Shown: one piece after another, positions 20,424 to 26,903 of the stretch | Layout of the letters: every line of letters begins with the position of its first letter | Numbering within the stretch: position 1 is the first letter of the stretch | Notes under the pieces: generated by a model | The model's database searches: none | What the model saw: only the letters and a program-made list of their open reading frames with translations | Told to the model about the DNA's origin: nothing | Translations under genes and position numbers: made by a program | NCBI RefSeq assembly: GCF_029893825.1 | Contig: NZ_JARXXV010000001.1 | Location: 1,302,001 to 1,366,000 of the forward strand | Direction: 5' to 3' | DNA from: Aurantimicrobium minutum | GTDB taxonomy: Bacteria > Actinomycetota > Actinomycetes > Actinomycetales > Microbacteriaceae | DNA: 64,000 bases

Positions 20424-20503
20424 TCTTGAACAAGCTTCGGTGAAAACCGCATCAAAACAAGGAATTTCCAGCTCACACTGGAATGAAGAAGGAGAAACAA
20501 CAT

Positions 20504-22363
20504 ATGTCACGTGCAGTAGGAATTGACCTCGGAACCACCAACTCGGTCGTTTCCGTACTCGAAGGTGGCGAGCCCACCGTTATCGCTAACGCTGAAGGTT
20601 TCCGCACTACCCCCTCGGTAGTCGCTTTCACCAAGGACGGCGAAGTACTCGTTGGCGAGCCCGCAAAGCGCCAGGCAGTAACCAACGTTGATCGCACCAT
20701 CGCGTCGGTCAAACGTCACATCGGTACCGACTGGACCGTCGCTATCGACGACAAGAAGTACACCCCACAAGAAATTTCTGCTCGTATCCTGGGCAAGCTC
20801 AAGCGCGACGCAGAAACCTACCTCGGTGACACCGTCACCGATGCCGTCATCACCGTCCCTGCATACTTCAACGATGCAGAGCGTCAGGCAACCAAGGATG
20901 CTGGTGAAATTGCAGGTCTCAACGTTCTGCGTATCATCAACGAGCCCACCGCTGCGGCGCTGGCATACGGTCTGGACAAGGGTAAGGAAGACGAGCTCAT
21001 CCTCGTATTCGACCTCGGTGGTGGAACCTTCGACGTTTCCCTGCTCGAAGTTGGCAAGGACGATGATTTCTCCACCATCCAGGTTCGTGCAACCTCCGGT
21101 GACAACCGCCTCGGTGGTGACGACTGGGATCAGCGCATCGTGGAGCACTTGATCAAGAAGTTCAAGGAGACCACTGGTGTTGACGTGTCCAAGGACAAGA
21201 TTGCGCTGCAGCGTCTGAAGGAAGCAGCAGAGCAGGCAAAGAAGGAGCTCAGCTCCTCCATGAGCACCAGCATTCAGTTGCCATACCTCTCCCTCACCGA
21301 GAACGGCCCAGCCAACCTCGATGAGACCCTCACCCGTGCACAGTTCGAGTCGATGACCGAAGACCTCATCGCTCGCACCAAGAAGCCATTCGAGGATGTC
21401 ATCAAGGAAGCAGGCGTCAAGGTCAGCGACATTGCACACGTCGTGCTCGTTGGTGGATCCACTCGTATGCCCGCAGTTGCTGAACTGGTGAAGACTCTCA
21501 CCGGCGGCAAGGAGCCCAACAAGACAGTGAACCCAGATGAGGTTGTTGCTGTTGGTGCTGCACTGCAGGCAGGTGTTCTTCGTGGAGAGCGCAAGGATGT
21601 TTTGCTCATCGATGTCACCCCACTGAGCCTCGGTATCGAGACCAAGGGTGGAATGATGACCAAGCTCATCGAGCGCAACACCGCGATCCCCACCAAGCGA
21701 TCCGAAACATTCACCACAGCTGATGACAACCAGCCCTCGGTATCCATTCAGGTATTCCAGGGTGAGCGTGAATTCACTCGTGACAACAAGTCACTGGGTA
21801 ACTTCGAGCTCAGCGGTATTGCACCAGCGCCTCGTGGAGTTCCACAGATCGAGGTCACCTTCGACATTGACGCTAACGGTATCGTGCACGTGTCCGCTAA
21901 GGACAAGGGCACCGGTAAGGAACAGTCGATGACCATCACCGGTGGATCATCACTTCCCAAGGAAGATATTGAGCGCATGGTTCGCGAAGCAGAAGAGCAC
22001 GCAGCCGAAGACAAGGCACGTCGTGAGTCTGCAGAGATCCGCAACGGTGCTGAGCAGCTGGCTTACTCCATCGAGAAGCTCATCAAGGAGAACGAAGACA
22101 AGCTTCCTGAAGACGTCAAGAACGATGTCCAGGCAGATGTCGACGCACTCAAGACTGCTCTAGCAGGTGAGGATGACGCAGCAGTGAAGACTGCTTACGA
22201 CAAGCTCATGGAAAGCCAAGGCAAGCTCGGTGAAGCAATCTATGCAGCCGGTCAAGCTGAAGGTGGTGCCGAAGGTGCTGCTGAAGGCGAAGCAGCATCT
22301 GATGACGACGTCGTCGACGCTGAAGTTGTCGAAGATGACGAGGCTGACAAGGACAACAAGTAA
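20504..22363 (+). CDS. dnaK: Molecular chaperone DnaK (Hsp70)
   Basis: ATP-driven chaperone for nascent and damaged proteins. The 619-residue protein begins [12 protein letters not shown] (phosphate 1 loop), has [13 protein letters not shown] (phosphate 2), [10 protein letters not shown] (adenosine loop) and the linker-proximal [11 protein letters not shown], then the substrate-binding domain and an acidic tail rich in Asp/Glu. The frame opens at ATG 20483, but ATG 20504 begins the canonical protein and has AAGGAG 10 nt upstream; the upstream ATG overlaps that ribosome-binding site. First gene of dnaK-grpE-dnaJ-hspR, with two HAIR-like sites in front. Confidence 0.98.
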
Positions 22364-22365
22364 GC

Positions 22366-22986
22366 ATGTCCGACCAGAACAACAACCCAGTAGAGGAGCC
22401 CCTGAATGGGGGCTCCTCCGCCGGGGAGGCCAACGAAGCTGGCGAGAACGCCGGTTTTGTTGAAGACCCTGGTTATGACAACGCCGAAGCTGTTTCTGTA
22501 GAAGACGCTGATGTAGAGACCTCTCTGTCAGATGCCGACCTTTCTTTCCTCGAAGAGGCAGAAAATGATCTGGCCGCAGAGCGTCTGGCAGACCTTCAGC
22601 GGGTAACTGCTGAATACGCCAACTACCGCAAGCGCACCGAAGCGAACCGTGAAATCGAACGCGAACGAATCATCGGCGACACTGTGAAGATTCTTCTTCC
22701 AGTACTCGATGACATCGACCGTGCCGAGAAGCACGGCGACCTGGCTGAGGGCTCCGCCCTGGCAGCCATCGCCGGCAAGCTTCGCGGAGTGACCGAGCGT
22801 TTAGGTTTGGTTGCCTATGGCGCAGCAGGCGATGTTTTTGATCCCAACCAGCACGAAGCAATCTTGCAGCAGCCATCTCCAGATGTCACTGTGGAGACAG
22901 TGCTGGATGTTGTCGAGACCGGTTACACCCTCGGCAGCACACAGGTTCGCGCGGCCAAGGTGGTCGTGGCAGTTCCTGCAGAATAA
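22366..22986 (+). CDS. grpE: Nucleotide exchange factor GrpE
   Basis: Homodimeric exchange factor that releases ADP from DnaK. 206 residues: an acidic, low-complexity N-terminus (about 1-65), then the long coiled coil LADLQRVTAEYANYRKRTEA, ILLPVLDDIDRAEKH, and the C-terminal beta domain with FDPNQHEAI and ending VVVAVPAE. ATG 22366 lies 2 nt after the dnaK stop, so translation is coupled. The family signature around YxNYRKR is clear. Confidence 0.96.
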   Translation: MSDQNNNPVEEPLNGGSSAGEANEAGENAGFVEDPGYDNAEAVSVEDADVETSLSDADLSFLEEAENDLAAERLADLQRVTAEYANYRKRTEANREIERERIIGDTVKILLPVLDDIDRAEKHGDLAEGSALAAIAGKLRGVTERLGLVAYGAAGDVFDPNQHEAILQQPSPDVTVETVLDVVETGYTLGSTQVRAAKVVVAVPAE

Positions 22987-23019
22987 TTTTCGAAACGACT
23001 AGACAGAAAGGGGGCGCAT

Positions 23020-23994
23020 ATGGCCAGTCAAGATTGGTTCGATAAAGACTTTTATAAAGTCCTCGGCGTCTCCAAGGACGTCTCGGAAGCGGAACTGAAG
23101 AAGGTATACCGCAAGCTTGCTCGCGAGTATCACCCCGACTCCAACCAGGGCAATGCCAAGGCTGAAGCAAAGTTCAAAGAAATCTCGGAAGCATACTCTG
23201 TTCTCTCCGACAAGGAGCAGCGAGCTGAGTATGACCAGATTCGCGCCATGGGTTCTGGTGCACGATTTAGTGCCGGTGGACCCAGCGGTGGCTTCGATGA
23301 CGCCTTTAGCGGCTTTGGTCGCGGAGGCCAGCAGTTCAACTTCCAGCAAGGCGGCGGGTTCGAAGACATCCTCGGTGGAATGTTTGGCGGAGGCGGCCGA
23401 TTCGGCCAGTCCTCCGGCGGCTTCCGTGGATTTGGTGGACCGCAGAAGGGGCAAGACATTGTCTCCTCGGTCACGATTGACTTCTTTGAAGCTTTCCACG
23501 GCGAAACTATGAGCTTGCAGACCAGCGAGGGTCGCACCGTTAAGGTGAAGATTCCTGCTGGCGTTGCCGATGCGCAAAAGATCCGCTTGCGTGGCAAGGG
23601 TTACCCCAGCCCCGACGGTGGTGAAGCAGGCGACATCGTCCTCACCGTCAAGGTGAAGAAGCACCCTGTCTTTGACCGGGATGGATTGAACGTCAAGGTC
23701 AATGTTCCGGTCACCTTCGTGGAAGCTGCACTTGGTGCAACTATTGAAGTTCCCACCCCCGACGGGGAAACAGTGAAGCTCAAGGTTGCCCCTGGCACAC
23801 CCAGTGGACGTTCTTTGCGCGTGAAGGGTCGCGGAATTAAGACCGCGAAGGGCACCGGTGATCTGCTCGCCGTTGTTCAGATTGCTGTCCCCTCTCACCT
23901 AGACGACAAGGCACGTGAGGCACTCGAGCAATTCTCTGCAGTTGCGCCAACCGAGAACCCTCGCGCAGACTTAATCCACGACGCCAAGCGTTAG
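23020..23994 (+). CDS. dnaJ: J-domain co-chaperone DnaJ without zinc finger
   Basis: Stimulates DnaK ATPase and delivers substrates. The J domain (about 8-75) has the invariant HPD in EYHPDSN. A long Gly/Phe-rich region follows (about 82-145). The C-terminal beta domains carry VKVKIPAGVADAQKIRLRGKGYP and the final client-binding segment. The CxxCxGxG zinc-finger repeats of type A DnaJ are absent, making it a 324-residue type B (CbpA/DnaJ2-like) protein even though it sits in the dnaK operon. AAAGGGGG lies 6-9 nt before ATG 23020. Confidence 0.95.
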   Translation: MASQDWFDKDFYKVLGVSKDVSEAELKKVYRKLAREYHPDSNQGNAKAEAKFKEISEAYSVLSDKEQRAEYDQIRAMGSGARFSAGGPSGGFDDAFSGFGRGGQQFNFQQGGGFEDILGGMFGGGGRFGQSSGGFRGFGGPQKGQDIVSSVTIDFFEAFHGETMSLQTSEGRTVKVKIPAGVADAQKIRLRGKGYPSPDGGEAGDIVLTVKVKKHPVFDRDGLNVKVNVPVTFVEAALGATIEVPTPDGETVKLKVAPGTPSGRSLRVKGRGIKTAKGTGDLLAVVQIAVPSHLDDKAREALEQFSAVAPTENPRADLIHDAKR

Positions 23995-24019
23995 ACCCCC
24001 ACTCGAGAGAAGGAAAAGC

Positions 24020-24436
24020 ATGGACGAAAACCAGCCCATCTTCACTATCTCGATGGCGTCTGAGCTAGCGGGAATGCATCCGCAAACCCTGCGTCAATAT
24101 GACCGCATCGGCCTGGTTCAGCCAGGCCGAACAGCGGGTCAATCCCGCCGCTATTCCATGCGTAATGTGGCACAGCTGCGTGAGGTCGCCAGGCTCAGCG
24201 CCGAGGGACTTTCCCTTGAAGGCATCCGCCGCGTGCTTGAACTGGAAAACCAGAACGACGCACTGCGTGCTCGAGTGCGCGAGTTAGAGGCAGCGCTCGC
24301 CGATGCTTTGCTGAACCAGCCTGGCCGTCGCGTCTTTGCCGCCGGCTCTGCCGGTGAAGTGGAGAGCCTGCGTTCTGGAACACGTTCCCGCCGCCGCACA
24401 GATGTCGTTATTTGGCGCCCCTTCGGGCGTGACTAA
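24020..24436 (+). CDS. hspR: Heat-shock repressor HspR, MerR family
   Basis: Repressor that binds HAIR sites and, with DnaK as co-repressor, shuts off its own operon (established in Streptomyces and mycobacteria). 138 residues: the MerR HTH ISMASELAGMHPQTLRQYDRIGLVQP, the wing RRYSMRNVAQL, then a coiled coil (about 75-100) and a basic C-terminus ending with VVIWRP. AAGGA is 6 nt before ATG 24020. The two HAIR-like sites upstream of dnaK are its obvious targets. Confidence 0.95.
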   Translation: MDENQPIFTISMASELAGMHPQTLRQYDRIGLVQPGRTAGQSRRYSMRNVAQLREVARLSAEGLSLEGIRRVLELENQNDALRARVRELEAALADALLNQPGRRVFAAGSAGEVESLRSGTRSRRRTDVVIWRPFGRD

Positions 24437-24666: not shown

Positions 24667-24695
24667 TTGAACCTTTCGGGCATCTCCCGTATAGT
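24667..24695 (+). promoter_or_regulatory. Housekeeping promoter of the DEAD-box helicase gene
   Basis: TTGAAC (-35) and TATAGT (-10) separated by exactly 17 bp: the best sigma-70-type promoter in the window. The predicted transcription start near 24702 gives an untranslated leader of about 180 nt. Confidence 0.78.
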
Positions 24696-24701
24696 CGAAA
24701 G

Positions 24702-24881
24702 GTCGGCTCTTGACACTGCACAGTGGTGCAGATGGGTTTGTAAGTCAGGTGGGCCGGTTCCCCAACAATTCTGTTGGAGATAGTCACTCGAAGTGAATCG
24801 GTCCCGGCCAAAGACTGCCCGGGTTCTTATCAGCACGTATTGTGTGCTGTTTTGCCTTGAATCCAACCCAGAAATAACGTC
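24702..24881 (+). ncRNA. Structured 5' leader of the DEAD-box helicase mRNA, possible attenuator
   Basis: Three nested or consecutive folds are visible by eye. Hairpin 1 is CTGCAC-agtg-GTGCAG (24716-24731). A closed three-way junction follows: outer stem GGCCGG (24752-24757) with CCGGCC (24804-24809), enclosing CCAACA-attc-TGTTGG (24762-24777) and TCACT-cga-AGTGA (24784-24796). Last is CAGCAC-N7-GTGCTG (24831-24849) followed by TTTT, terminator-like, 32 nt before the start codon. A cis-acting regulatory RNA is inferred. I do not recognise a named Rfam family. Confidence 0.5.
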
Positions 24882-26903
24882 ATGCCTAAGAACAAGAAAC
24901 CTGCCGGCGGTCGCCCGGCTAAGAACTTTGAACCTCGCTACGGCGCAAAGAAGTCCGGTGGGCCTTCCGCTGGTTCTCGTAGCCCAGGTCACCGCGGTTA
25001 CCGCCCCGAGTCCACTGAGGCTCCACGTAAGAACCGTTGGACTAATGAAGACCGCGACGCACGTCGCGGCGCACCTGCTGGCGAGCGTCCCTCATACGGT
25101 GACCGCGCTCCACGCGGTGACCGTAACGAGCGTCCCGCATACAACCGTGGTGAGCGTTTTGAGCGCCCAGCATATGGTGAGCGCAACGATCGTCCCCGTT
25201 ACGAGCGTTCTGAACGCCCCGCATACGGTGACCGTGCACCTCGCGGAGATCGTCCTTCTTACGGTGAGCGTTCTGAGCGTCCCCGTTTTGACCGCAATGA
25301 GCGTCCCGCATACAACCGTGGTGAGCGTTCTGAGCGTCCCGCATACGGTGACCGTAAAGAACGCCCTCGCTTTGACCGTGATGCTCCTCGTGGAGAACGT
25401 CGATTCGAAGAGCGTTCTGAGCGTCCCCGTTACGACCGTGCAGATCGCCCCGAGCGTGCTTCCTATGGTGAGCGTTCAGAGCGCCCTCGTTATGAGCGTT
25501 CTGATCGTCCTTCGTATGGAGATCGCGCACCTCGCTCTGACCGTTTCGACCGTTCAGACCGAGGACCTCGTAACTTCGGTGGCGATCGTCCACGCTGGAA
25601 CAAGGACGAGGCTCCTCGTAGTTCCGCCTCTGATTTCTACCCATCCAAGGAAGAGAAGCCACGCTTCAACCCTGAAGATGATGTCGTACTCGAGCGTCTT
25701 GAAGCACAGTCAACCACAGCAGCTGATGTTGATGGTGTGAGCTTCGCCGACCTCGGTCTTGGCGGAAACATCTGCCGTCAGCTCGCAGAGATGGGTGCAG
25801 TCGCACCATTTCCCATCCAGGCAGCAACCATCCCTGACGTTCTTGCTGGCAAGGATGTTTTGGGTCGTGGAAAGACTGGATCGGGCAAGACCATTGCATT
25901 CGGTTCTCCAGTTGTTGAACGCCTGATGGAAAACAACGGTGGTAAGGACCGTAAGCAGGGACGTCCAGCACGTGCACTGATTATGGCTCCTACCCGCGAA
26001 CTGGCCATGCAGATTGATCGCACCGTGCAGCCCATTGCGCGCTCGGTGGGACTGTTCACCACCACCATCTTCGGTGGTGTTCCTCAGCACAAGCAGGTGA
26101 TGAGCCTGCGTCGTGGTGTGGACATCATCATCGCGACCCCTGGCCGCTTGGAAGACCTCGTTGAGCAGGGTCACATCGACCTCTCCAACATCGTGGTGAC
26201 CGTTCTTGATGAAGCAGACCACATGTGTGACCTCGGCTTCCTTGAGCCAGTCCAGCGCATTATGCGTGCCACCAAGGCAGACGGTCAGCGCCTGCTGTTC
26301 TCGGCAACCTTGGATAAGGGTGTTGCCGCAATCGTGAACGAGTTCCTCAAGGATCCTGCTGTGCACGAGGTTGCTGGTGAAGACCAGGCTTCGTCAACTA
26401 TTGACCACCGCGTCTTGGTTGTTGAGCACCGTGACAAGCCTTTCGTCATCGAGCAGCTTGCTTCTCGCGAAGGAAAGACTCTCATCTTTGCTCGCACCCG
26501 CGCATATGCTGAGCAGCTTGCTGACCAGCTCGAGGATGCAGGTATTCCTGCAACCAGCTTGCACGGTGACCTGAACCAGAACCGTCGTACCCGCAACCTT
26601 CAGTTGCTTACCAGCGGTCGCGTAAACGTGCTGGTAGCAACAGACGTTGCTGCTCGTGGTATTCACGTTGATGACATTGACCTGGTGATCCAGGCTGATG
26701 CTCCTGATGAGTACAAGACCTACATGCACCGCTCTGGCCGCACCGGCCGTGCGGGCAAGCAGGGAACGGTGGTCACCATCATTCCTCGCACCCGCCAGCG
26801 TCGTATGAACGACCTGTTGGGCCGTGCTGAGATTGAAGCAGAGATGGTTCCTGCACAGCCCGGTGACGAACTGCTCGATCAGCTCGCTTCATCAAACGCG
26901 TAG
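24882..26903 (+). CDS. DEAD-box RNA helicase with long repetitive disordered N-terminus
   Basis: ATP-dependent RNA helicase of 673 residues. Residues 1-250 are low-complexity, built from short repeats of R, E, D, P, Y and G (GERSERP, YGDRAPRGDR). The helicase core begins near FADLGLGGNI (Q-motif region, FPIQAATIP). Motif I is GKTGSGKT, Ia PTRELAMQ, II VLDEADHMCDLGF, III SAT, IV-VI include TDVAARGIHV and HRSGRTGRAG. It is close to the RhlE/DeaD type that assists ribosome assembly and cold growth (inference). No good Shine-Dalgarno precedes ATG 24882, which fits control by the structured leader. Confidence 0.93.
   Translation: MPKNKKPAGGRPAKNFEPRYGAKKSGGPSAGSRSPGHRGYRPESTEAPRKNRWTNEDRDARRGAPAGERPSYGDRAPRGDRNERPAYNRGERFERPAYGERNDRPRYERSERPAYGDRAPRGDRPSYGERSERPRFDRNERPAYNRGERSERPAYGDRKERPRFDRDAPRGERRFEERSERPRYDRADRPERASYGERSERPRYERSDRPSYGDRAPRSDRFDRSDRGPRNFGGDRPRWNKDEAPRSSASDFYPSKEEKPRFNPEDDVVLERLEAQSTTAADVDGVSFADLGLGGNICRQLAEMGAVAPFPIQAATIPDVLAGKDVLGRGKTGSGKTIAFGSPVVERLMENNGGKDRKQGRPARALIMAPTRELAMQIDRTVQPIARSVGLFTTTIFGGVPQHKQVMSLRRGVDIIIATPGRLEDLVEQGHIDLSNIVVTVLDEADHMCDLGFLEPVQRIMRATKADGQRLLFSATLDKGVAAIVNEFLKDPAVHEVAGEDQASSTIDHRVLVVEHRDKPFVIEQLASREGKTLIFARTRAYAEQLADQLEDAGIPATSLHGDLNQNRRTRNLQLLTSGRVNVLVATDVAARGIHVDDIDLVIQADAPDEYKTYMHRSGRTGRAGKQGTVVTIIPRTRQRRMNDLLGRAEIEAEMVPAQPGDELLDQLASSNA
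25065..25575 (+). repeat. In-frame short tandem repeats coding the helicase N-terminus
   Basis: Degenerate repeats built around gagcgttctgagcgtccc and gcatacggtgaccg units keep one reading frame and give GERSERP/AYGDR peptides. Copies vary at third codon positions, showing selection on the peptide rather than recent DNA duplication. Confidence 0.75.

Follow-up and report, generated by a model that had tools for sequence, protein, structure and literature searches.

In the 64,000-nucleotide stretch of Aurantimicrobium minutum DNA analyzed here (the window), a DEAD-box helicase gene encoding 673 amino acids occupies positions 24882–26903 of the plus strand, which also carries all the leader features described below. 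The open reading frame contains the Pfam domains DEAD and Helicase_C, and its product scores under every NCBIfam equivalog cut-off shown. The arginine-rich N-terminal extension (window positions 24882–25700) is a long repeat with ERPAYGDR-like units, and its start, MPKNKKPAGGRPAKNF, is conserved in many relatives. Directly upstream, at 20483–24436, lie dnaK-like and grpE-like genes (recognized by eye from the sequence), a gene for a DnaJ-domain protein and a gene for an HspR-like repressor; the gene upstream of the helicase differs in some relatives. A small upstream open reading frame of 58 codons has no hit in Pfam or NCBIfam.

The preliminary description of this region placed a near-consensus promoter in front of a leader of about 180 nucleotides, and all the sequence elements that it named are present in the window. 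The promoter (24667–24695) consists of the −35-like hexamer TTGAAC (24667–24672) and the −10 hexamer TATAGT (24690–24695), separated by 17 nucleotides; it matches 9 of the 12 consensus positions, and one such promoter was found against a mean of 0.4 in shuffled sequences. The leader RNA spans exactly 180 nucleotides (24702–24881), from the G of GUCGGC to the base immediately 5′ of the ATG. A TANNNT hexamer ends 5–7 nucleotides 5′ of GTCGGC in all 99 leaders with upstream sequence, in 85 of them at exactly 6, compared with 0–4 of 99 leaders in control windows (L197 was re-registered by hand for this count, and L009 was omitted for lack of upstream sequence). Because the −10 hexamer stands at a fixed spacing from the first conserved base, transcription probably starts at 24702. 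Of all the evidence, this spacing speaks most strongly for the conserved block being the 5′ end of the transcript, and, at the level of sequence, it places the start away from the ATG, the proximity of which would have left the structures untranscribed. The folding energy of 24702–24920 by itself is unexceptional (z −1.70; 11 of 200 shuffles fold equally well), and it is the comparison among relatives, namely conservation, covariation and promoter spacing, that makes the leader more than a chance structure and strongly supports the earlier proposal of cis-regulation by a structured leader.

A DNA search (blastn) with a 261-base query around the leader found matches in 187 of the 398 sampled Microbacteriaceae genomes. 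In its own genome, the leader is present in one copy and is thus linked to one gene, as expected of an autoregulatory leader. R1, a covariance model derived from the 49 leaders of alignment A1, matched 139 of 169 Microbacterium genomes at E ≤ 0.05 and, with laxer filters, recovered the leader in 8 of 20 family genomes missed by blastn (E ≤ 2e-6). When genomes of the order and the class were sampled (31 of 396 and 19 of 394 with matches, respectively), every match fell within Microbacteriaceae, and no match at E ≤ 0.01 was obtained in other families of the order and class, with 8 first-look candidates scored per genome. A single outside-family match, in genome G399, covered 24 positions at E 0.6, the level expected by chance. 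Among 75 helicase loci, 58 match the leader model at E ≤ 1.9e-6 and 3 more match it weakly, many of the other 14 being truncated or incomplete; of 25 helicase loci outside the family, not one matches at E ≤ 10, and most of these look like another paralog. In the loci that were read, the leader occurs only in front of the helicase gene, with the helicase N-terminus following. One contig titled Aeromicrobium (L260) carries both the leader (105 bits) and the helicase, so that either this assembly is misnamed or the exception is real. By sequence comparison, the leader is thus strongly conserved across one family, Microbacteriaceae, as a predicted two-state RNA.

The preliminary description proposed a scan against Rfam, and this yielded no credible family: with Rfam 15, the window leader had no match at the gathering score and none at E ≤ 10, and among 14 leaders of relatives the one hit was to a miRNA and scored 27 bits, where the gathering score is 70. 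Membership in a known Rfam family was therefore dropped as an explanation, and the leader represents a structured RNA family that Rfam 15 does not contain. In the open-access literature searched, we found nothing recognizable as this leader. A second DEAD-box helicase paralog, found in the same genome (L315) and in L316, L317, L224 and L227, also has a long leader, with the recurring pieces CTGCGTCG ... CGGCGAAC, which were seen both in Microbacteriaceae and in a second family of the order. For these second-paralog leaders, Rfam gave nothing beyond one miRNA hit, low-complexity-like and located elsewhere in L224. To judge from these recurring pieces, the second-paralog leader may be a separate, wider leader RNA.

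Covariation among leaders of Microbacteriaceae relatives, the other comparison proposed at the outset, was assessed on three alignments: A1 (49 of 70 loci, 20 near-duplicates or sequences with large inserts having been excluded by hand and L064 also omitted), A2 (83 of 99 leaders, 77 of them distinct) and A3 (100 of about 199 leaders, picked for diversity). On A1, RNAalifold without guidance proposed the 5′ stem and P3. In A2, 98.1% of cells are paired and 14 of 26 pairs show double changes; in A3, the corresponding values are 97.2% and 18 of 26, and none of 500 shuffles reaches any of the measures, although the shuffles ignore relatedness and alignments fitted to a covariance model lean towards that model. 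Row L197 is off by one base in A3, so its P1x double changes are artefacts (the misregistration also spoils the rows of L197 in the energy comparison below); with this row dropped, double changes remain in 16 of 26 pairs, and the expected covariation was thus observed.

The 5′ part of the leader can form a long hairpin, UCGGCUC-UUGAC/GUCAG..GGGCCGG, which the preliminary description missed and which excludes the junction that it drew. At the base of this hairpin, the P1x 5′ strand UCGGCUC (24703–24709) pairs with 24751–24757, with 98.4% of A3 cells paired. The clearest helix is P1, in which UUGAC (24710–24714) pairs with GUCAG (24744–24748) and 4 of 5 pairs show double changes, the pair 24711–24747 being seen as UA, AU, GC, GU and CG. 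Within it lies the P1b hairpin (24716–24731; 24716–24721 with 24726–24731), with double changes in all 6 pairs. Further downstream follow P2a (24762–24777), a hairpin predicted by folding, CCAACA/TGTTGG in the window and variable in size among relatives; P2b (24784–24796), UCAC/GUGA, with double changes in all 3 modeled pairs; and the P2 3′ strand CGGUCC (24799–24804), CGGYCC in most relatives. The P3 hairpin (24803–24823), CCCGG (24803–24807) with CCGGG (24819–24823), has 98.8% of cells paired and double changes in 2 of 5 pairs, and shares two bases with the P2 3′ strand.

The central feature of the leader is the strand GGGCCG (24751–24756), which is complementary both to the 5′ CGGCUC of P1x (a pairing that we call state A) and to the 3′ CGGYCC of P2 at 24799–24804 (state B), so that the two pairings are mutually exclusive. 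P2 has 99.2% of cells paired on A3 and 100% on A2, and its covariation score is reached in 2 of 500 shuffles; for P1x, 0 of 500 shuffles reach the observed covariation with L197 included, but once L197 is dropped a single true double change (in L192) remains, so that the support for P1x is mostly consistency. The first pair of P2 is double-changed in L068, L194, L197 and L262. In L068, L194 and L262, where the shared strand is changed at its first base, P2 is kept and that P1x pair is lost, whereas L197, by hand reading, keeps P1x as well as P2. In L192 and L276 (CGGUUU/GGACCG/CGGUCC), both partners have changed along with the shared strand and both pairings survive. In a pattern count, P2 has all 6 of 6 pairs in 201 of 202 leaders and P1x in 189 of 202, counts that are partly built in because the pattern fixes part of the strands, and that include one wrong row (L190). 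By comparison among relatives, the complementarity of this strand to both partners has been preserved, which is what a switch would require. As in a riboswitch, conserved structure goes together with mutually exclusive helices, again with mostly consistency behind P1x. The closed junction of the preliminary description, GGCCGG (24752–24757) with CCGGCC (24804–24809), is indeed present and energetically favored in the window, but as an evolved helix it is no better than shuffles: 89.3% of cells are paired in this register, and 452 of 500 shuffles reach its score. We therefore rejected it as an evolved junction helix, the kept helix being GGGCCG/CGGYCC.

Between P1b and the 3′ strand of P1, the 5′ hairpin carries a near-invariant loop, GGGUUUGUAA (24734–24743), of which GGGUU (24734–24738) is complementary to AACCC (24865–24869) just before the helicase start. 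This loop is near-invariant in most leaders; it is lost in many Microbacterium leaders and in some divergent genera while P1 stays, and in those Microbacterium leaders P2 stays too. AACCC is followed by the Shine-Dalgarno-like AGAAA (24870–24874), which complements UUUCU in the anti-Shine-Dalgarno stretch of the 16S gene of the same genome; relatives have AGGAAA, GGAAAG or AGAAGGA at this position. Contrary to the preliminary description, a Shine-Dalgarno sequence before the ATG is therefore not wholly absent. With the better start calls, available for 184 of the 193 distinct leaders, ARCCC before the start accompanies the GGGUU loop in 113 of 115 leaders, compared with 23 of 69 without GGGUU (118 of 123 versus 23 of 70 with earlier start calls); the association is strong, with counts uncorrected for shared ancestry. 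One genus shows partial compensation, with UCGUU and AACGA in L047 and UUGUU and AACGA in L168, and in a third genome of that genus, L198, cut by a contig end, 4 of 5 pairs fit by hand reading. No replacement pairing was detectable among 70 divergent leaders without GGGUU (p = 0.42), and some leaders (L195, L283) retain AACCC despite loss of GGGUU. The pairing appears in the minimum-energy fold of the 180-nucleotide prefix and is absent from the folds of the 200-nucleotide prefix and of 24702–24920, and the extended helix P5 (CCGGGUU with AACCC[AG]G) has no visible covariation support. We regard the GGGUU/AACCC pairing as weak or undecided. A Microbacterium subgroup without AACCC (L160–L167, L179–L183, L291) has CTGTTCTCGTGTCAGAGACAG, a possible hairpin just 5′ of the Shine-Dalgarno position.

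In the energy model, the core states are nearly equal, with a median difference of 1.5 kcal/mol favoring P2, and lie within 3 kcal/mol of each other in 55 of 100 leaders. When the nascent RNA reaches only to nucleotide 97, P1x exceeds 0.5 in 93 of 98 leaders; when these leaders are complete, it does so in 2, and P2 in 57 and P3 in 5. Adopting state A carries a median cost of 8.1 kcal/mol for the complete leader in the model, and since state B is the more stable form there, state A would act as a kinetic trap. Openness of the stretch 16 to 7 nucleotides 5′ of the start is higher in state A by >0.1 in 61 of 99 leaders and lower in 1; L199 was without a start in this comparison, and a wrong start is evident in L030, L036, L038, L053, L074, L077, L098 and L181, the dropping of which leaves 59 of 91 more open in state A versus 1. 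Because forcing P3 removes its 3′ strand from competing pairings, this comparison is a consistency check rather than a test. In the window's own leader, the ribosome site is not more open in state A (0.45 versus 0.50), and in the congener L008 the openness in state A is 0.41 versus 0.50.

From the exclusive pairings and the modeled energies, we consider it plausible, though slightly short of an even chance, that this family-wide cis-regulatory leader of the helicase gene works as a two-state switch, of which we infer the sign and the trigger. During transcription, the 5′ hairpin (P1x, P1 and P1b) would form first, and in state A this hairpin together with P3 would leave the AACCC and Shine-Dalgarno region open, so that translation is on. 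Once the downstream strand is made, the leader could refold to state B, forming P2 and breaking P1x and P3, which would release the GGGUU copies for pairing with AACCC, next to the ribosome site, and turn translation off. State A would persist as a kinetic trap relative to the more stable state B, and a helicase that speeds refolding would repress its own mRNA; in the cold, traps would last longer and the helicase would be in short supply, so that the gene would stay on. The leader probably tunes the amount of the RNA-unwinding helicase that is made. Possible but on balance doubtful is the more specific model-based proposal that the leader is a direct sensor of helicase activity, in which the nascent-hairpin trap keeps translation on until the encoded helicase refolds it to the stable off state, with cold induction following from this. 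The one tie between the helicase protein and the leader RNA is linkage, with which autoregulation by the helicase, as suggested in the preliminary description, is compatible.

Several other readings of the same structures deserve consideration. That the leader is a site for another RNA-binding protein (a cold-shock protein, a ribosomal protein or an RNase), or an element stabilizing the 5′ end, appears rather unlikely: the first transcribed bases would lie within P1x in state A, with the predicted start one base 5′ of the conserved helix, which speaks for this reading, but no site for such a protein was recognized, and the longest match to the rRNA loci of the same genome is 10 nucleotides, antisense to 23S, which chance explains. 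Mimicry of rRNA was accordingly rejected, this sole match falling in the same genomic place in both overlapping rRNA loci. Control of the helicase gene by a small-molecule or ion riboswitch is likewise unlikely. The invariant unpaired GGGUUUGUAA between two covarying helices, combined with exclusive helices, does resemble an aptamer with an expression platform; however, riboswitches usually precede several genes of one pathway, whereas this leader is a single-copy feature of nearly all the genomes searched and, in the loci read, precedes the helicase gene alone, and many Microbacterium leaders have lost the loop yet kept P1 and P2. An RNA thermometer, in which cold or heat alone would shift the balance with no protein involved, seems improbable despite the cold-linked roles described for DEAD-box helicases (PMC3485376). 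In the model, cooling from 37 to 10 °C moves the median energy difference between the core states only from 1.5 to 1.05 kcal/mol, with state A the lower one in 32 of 100 leaders at the former temperature and in 41 at the latter; melting in the cold, raised in the preliminary description, is neither favored nor disfavored by this small shift.

Attenuation of transcription at P4 or P3, one of the mechanisms suggested in the preliminary description, is quite improbable. Its starting point is sound in the window, where the P4 hairpin CAGCAC...GTGCTG (24831–24849; −8.4 kcal/mol) is followed by TTTT (24850–24853), with 32 nucleotides between the stem end at 24849 and the ATG at 24882, and P3 is followed by TTCTT. 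Yet the tract has four U only, the terminator-like hairpin belongs to the genus of the window, other genera have a variable region here and do not preserve T-rich tails, and the terminator-like sites that a loose scan, run without a shuffle control, finds in 34 of 99 leaders are scattered in position. Relatives thus do not keep the GC-rich hairpin with a U-tract that marks an intrinsic terminator, and we rejected attenuation as a shared mechanism; of the earlier interpretation, cis-regulation stands and attenuation as a general mechanism does not, just as, of the earlier observations, the elements stand and the junction helix, the overlooked 5′ hairpin and the missing Shine-Dalgarno sequence had to be corrected. 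Very improbable is a three-codon upstream open reading frame in the loop (AUG GGU UUG stop) that would sense translation: [AG]TG GGT TTG TAA/TGA is intact in 93 of 193 distinct leaders, and 6 more have ATGGGTTTGTA, read as a TAG stop, but the other 94 are without it, the starts being lost in AAGGG, GAGGG, GCGGG and TCGGG loops and the stops in TTA, TCA and TAT variants in which the nucleotides are otherwise fixed. With the frame kept in only 99 of 193 leaders, start, frame and stop are not conserved as a leader-peptide attenuator would demand, and this candidate was rejected.

Beyond a few models, little is known about how bacteria adjust the supply of helicase to the demand from RNA folding, and this leader offers rich natural covariation, a defined, if predicted, 5′ end and two competing folds, and pins down which bases to mutate. 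Should the kinetic-trap reading be true, the RNA would report folding kinetics rather than a ligand, and the cell would set its helicase supply by how fast its own RNA refolds.

Among known systems, the leaders of deaD/csdA and of cold-shock genes in Escherichia coli likewise include a long structured 5′ UTR in front of a cold-linked helicase gene; the window leader shares this trait with deaD/csdA and is without an Rfam hit. Orphan riboswitch candidates from intergenic surveys (PMC11109978, PMC8632094, PMC6429828) are similar in being conserved structured leaders of one gene with unknown trigger, and the passages found in these surveys mention neither a DEAD-box helicase leader nor Microbacteriaceae. 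In the survey passage describing it, the uORFC-6-1 motif precedes hflX, called an RNA helicase there, in Bacillales, unlike the window leader. The Synechocystis DEAD-box helicase CrhR affects its own expression post-transcriptionally in a temperature-linked manner (abstract of PMC3485376). CrhR belongs to a different phylum, and that abstract describes no conserved two-state leader, but the theme of helicase autoregulation, putative in the window, is common to both. RNase E, in turn, is said to be feedback-regulated via the 5′ UTR of its own rne gene (in the passage found in PMC10989929); as far as that passage goes, rne differs in acting by endonuclease and is alike in that an enzyme of RNA metabolism is controlled through its own 5′ UTR.
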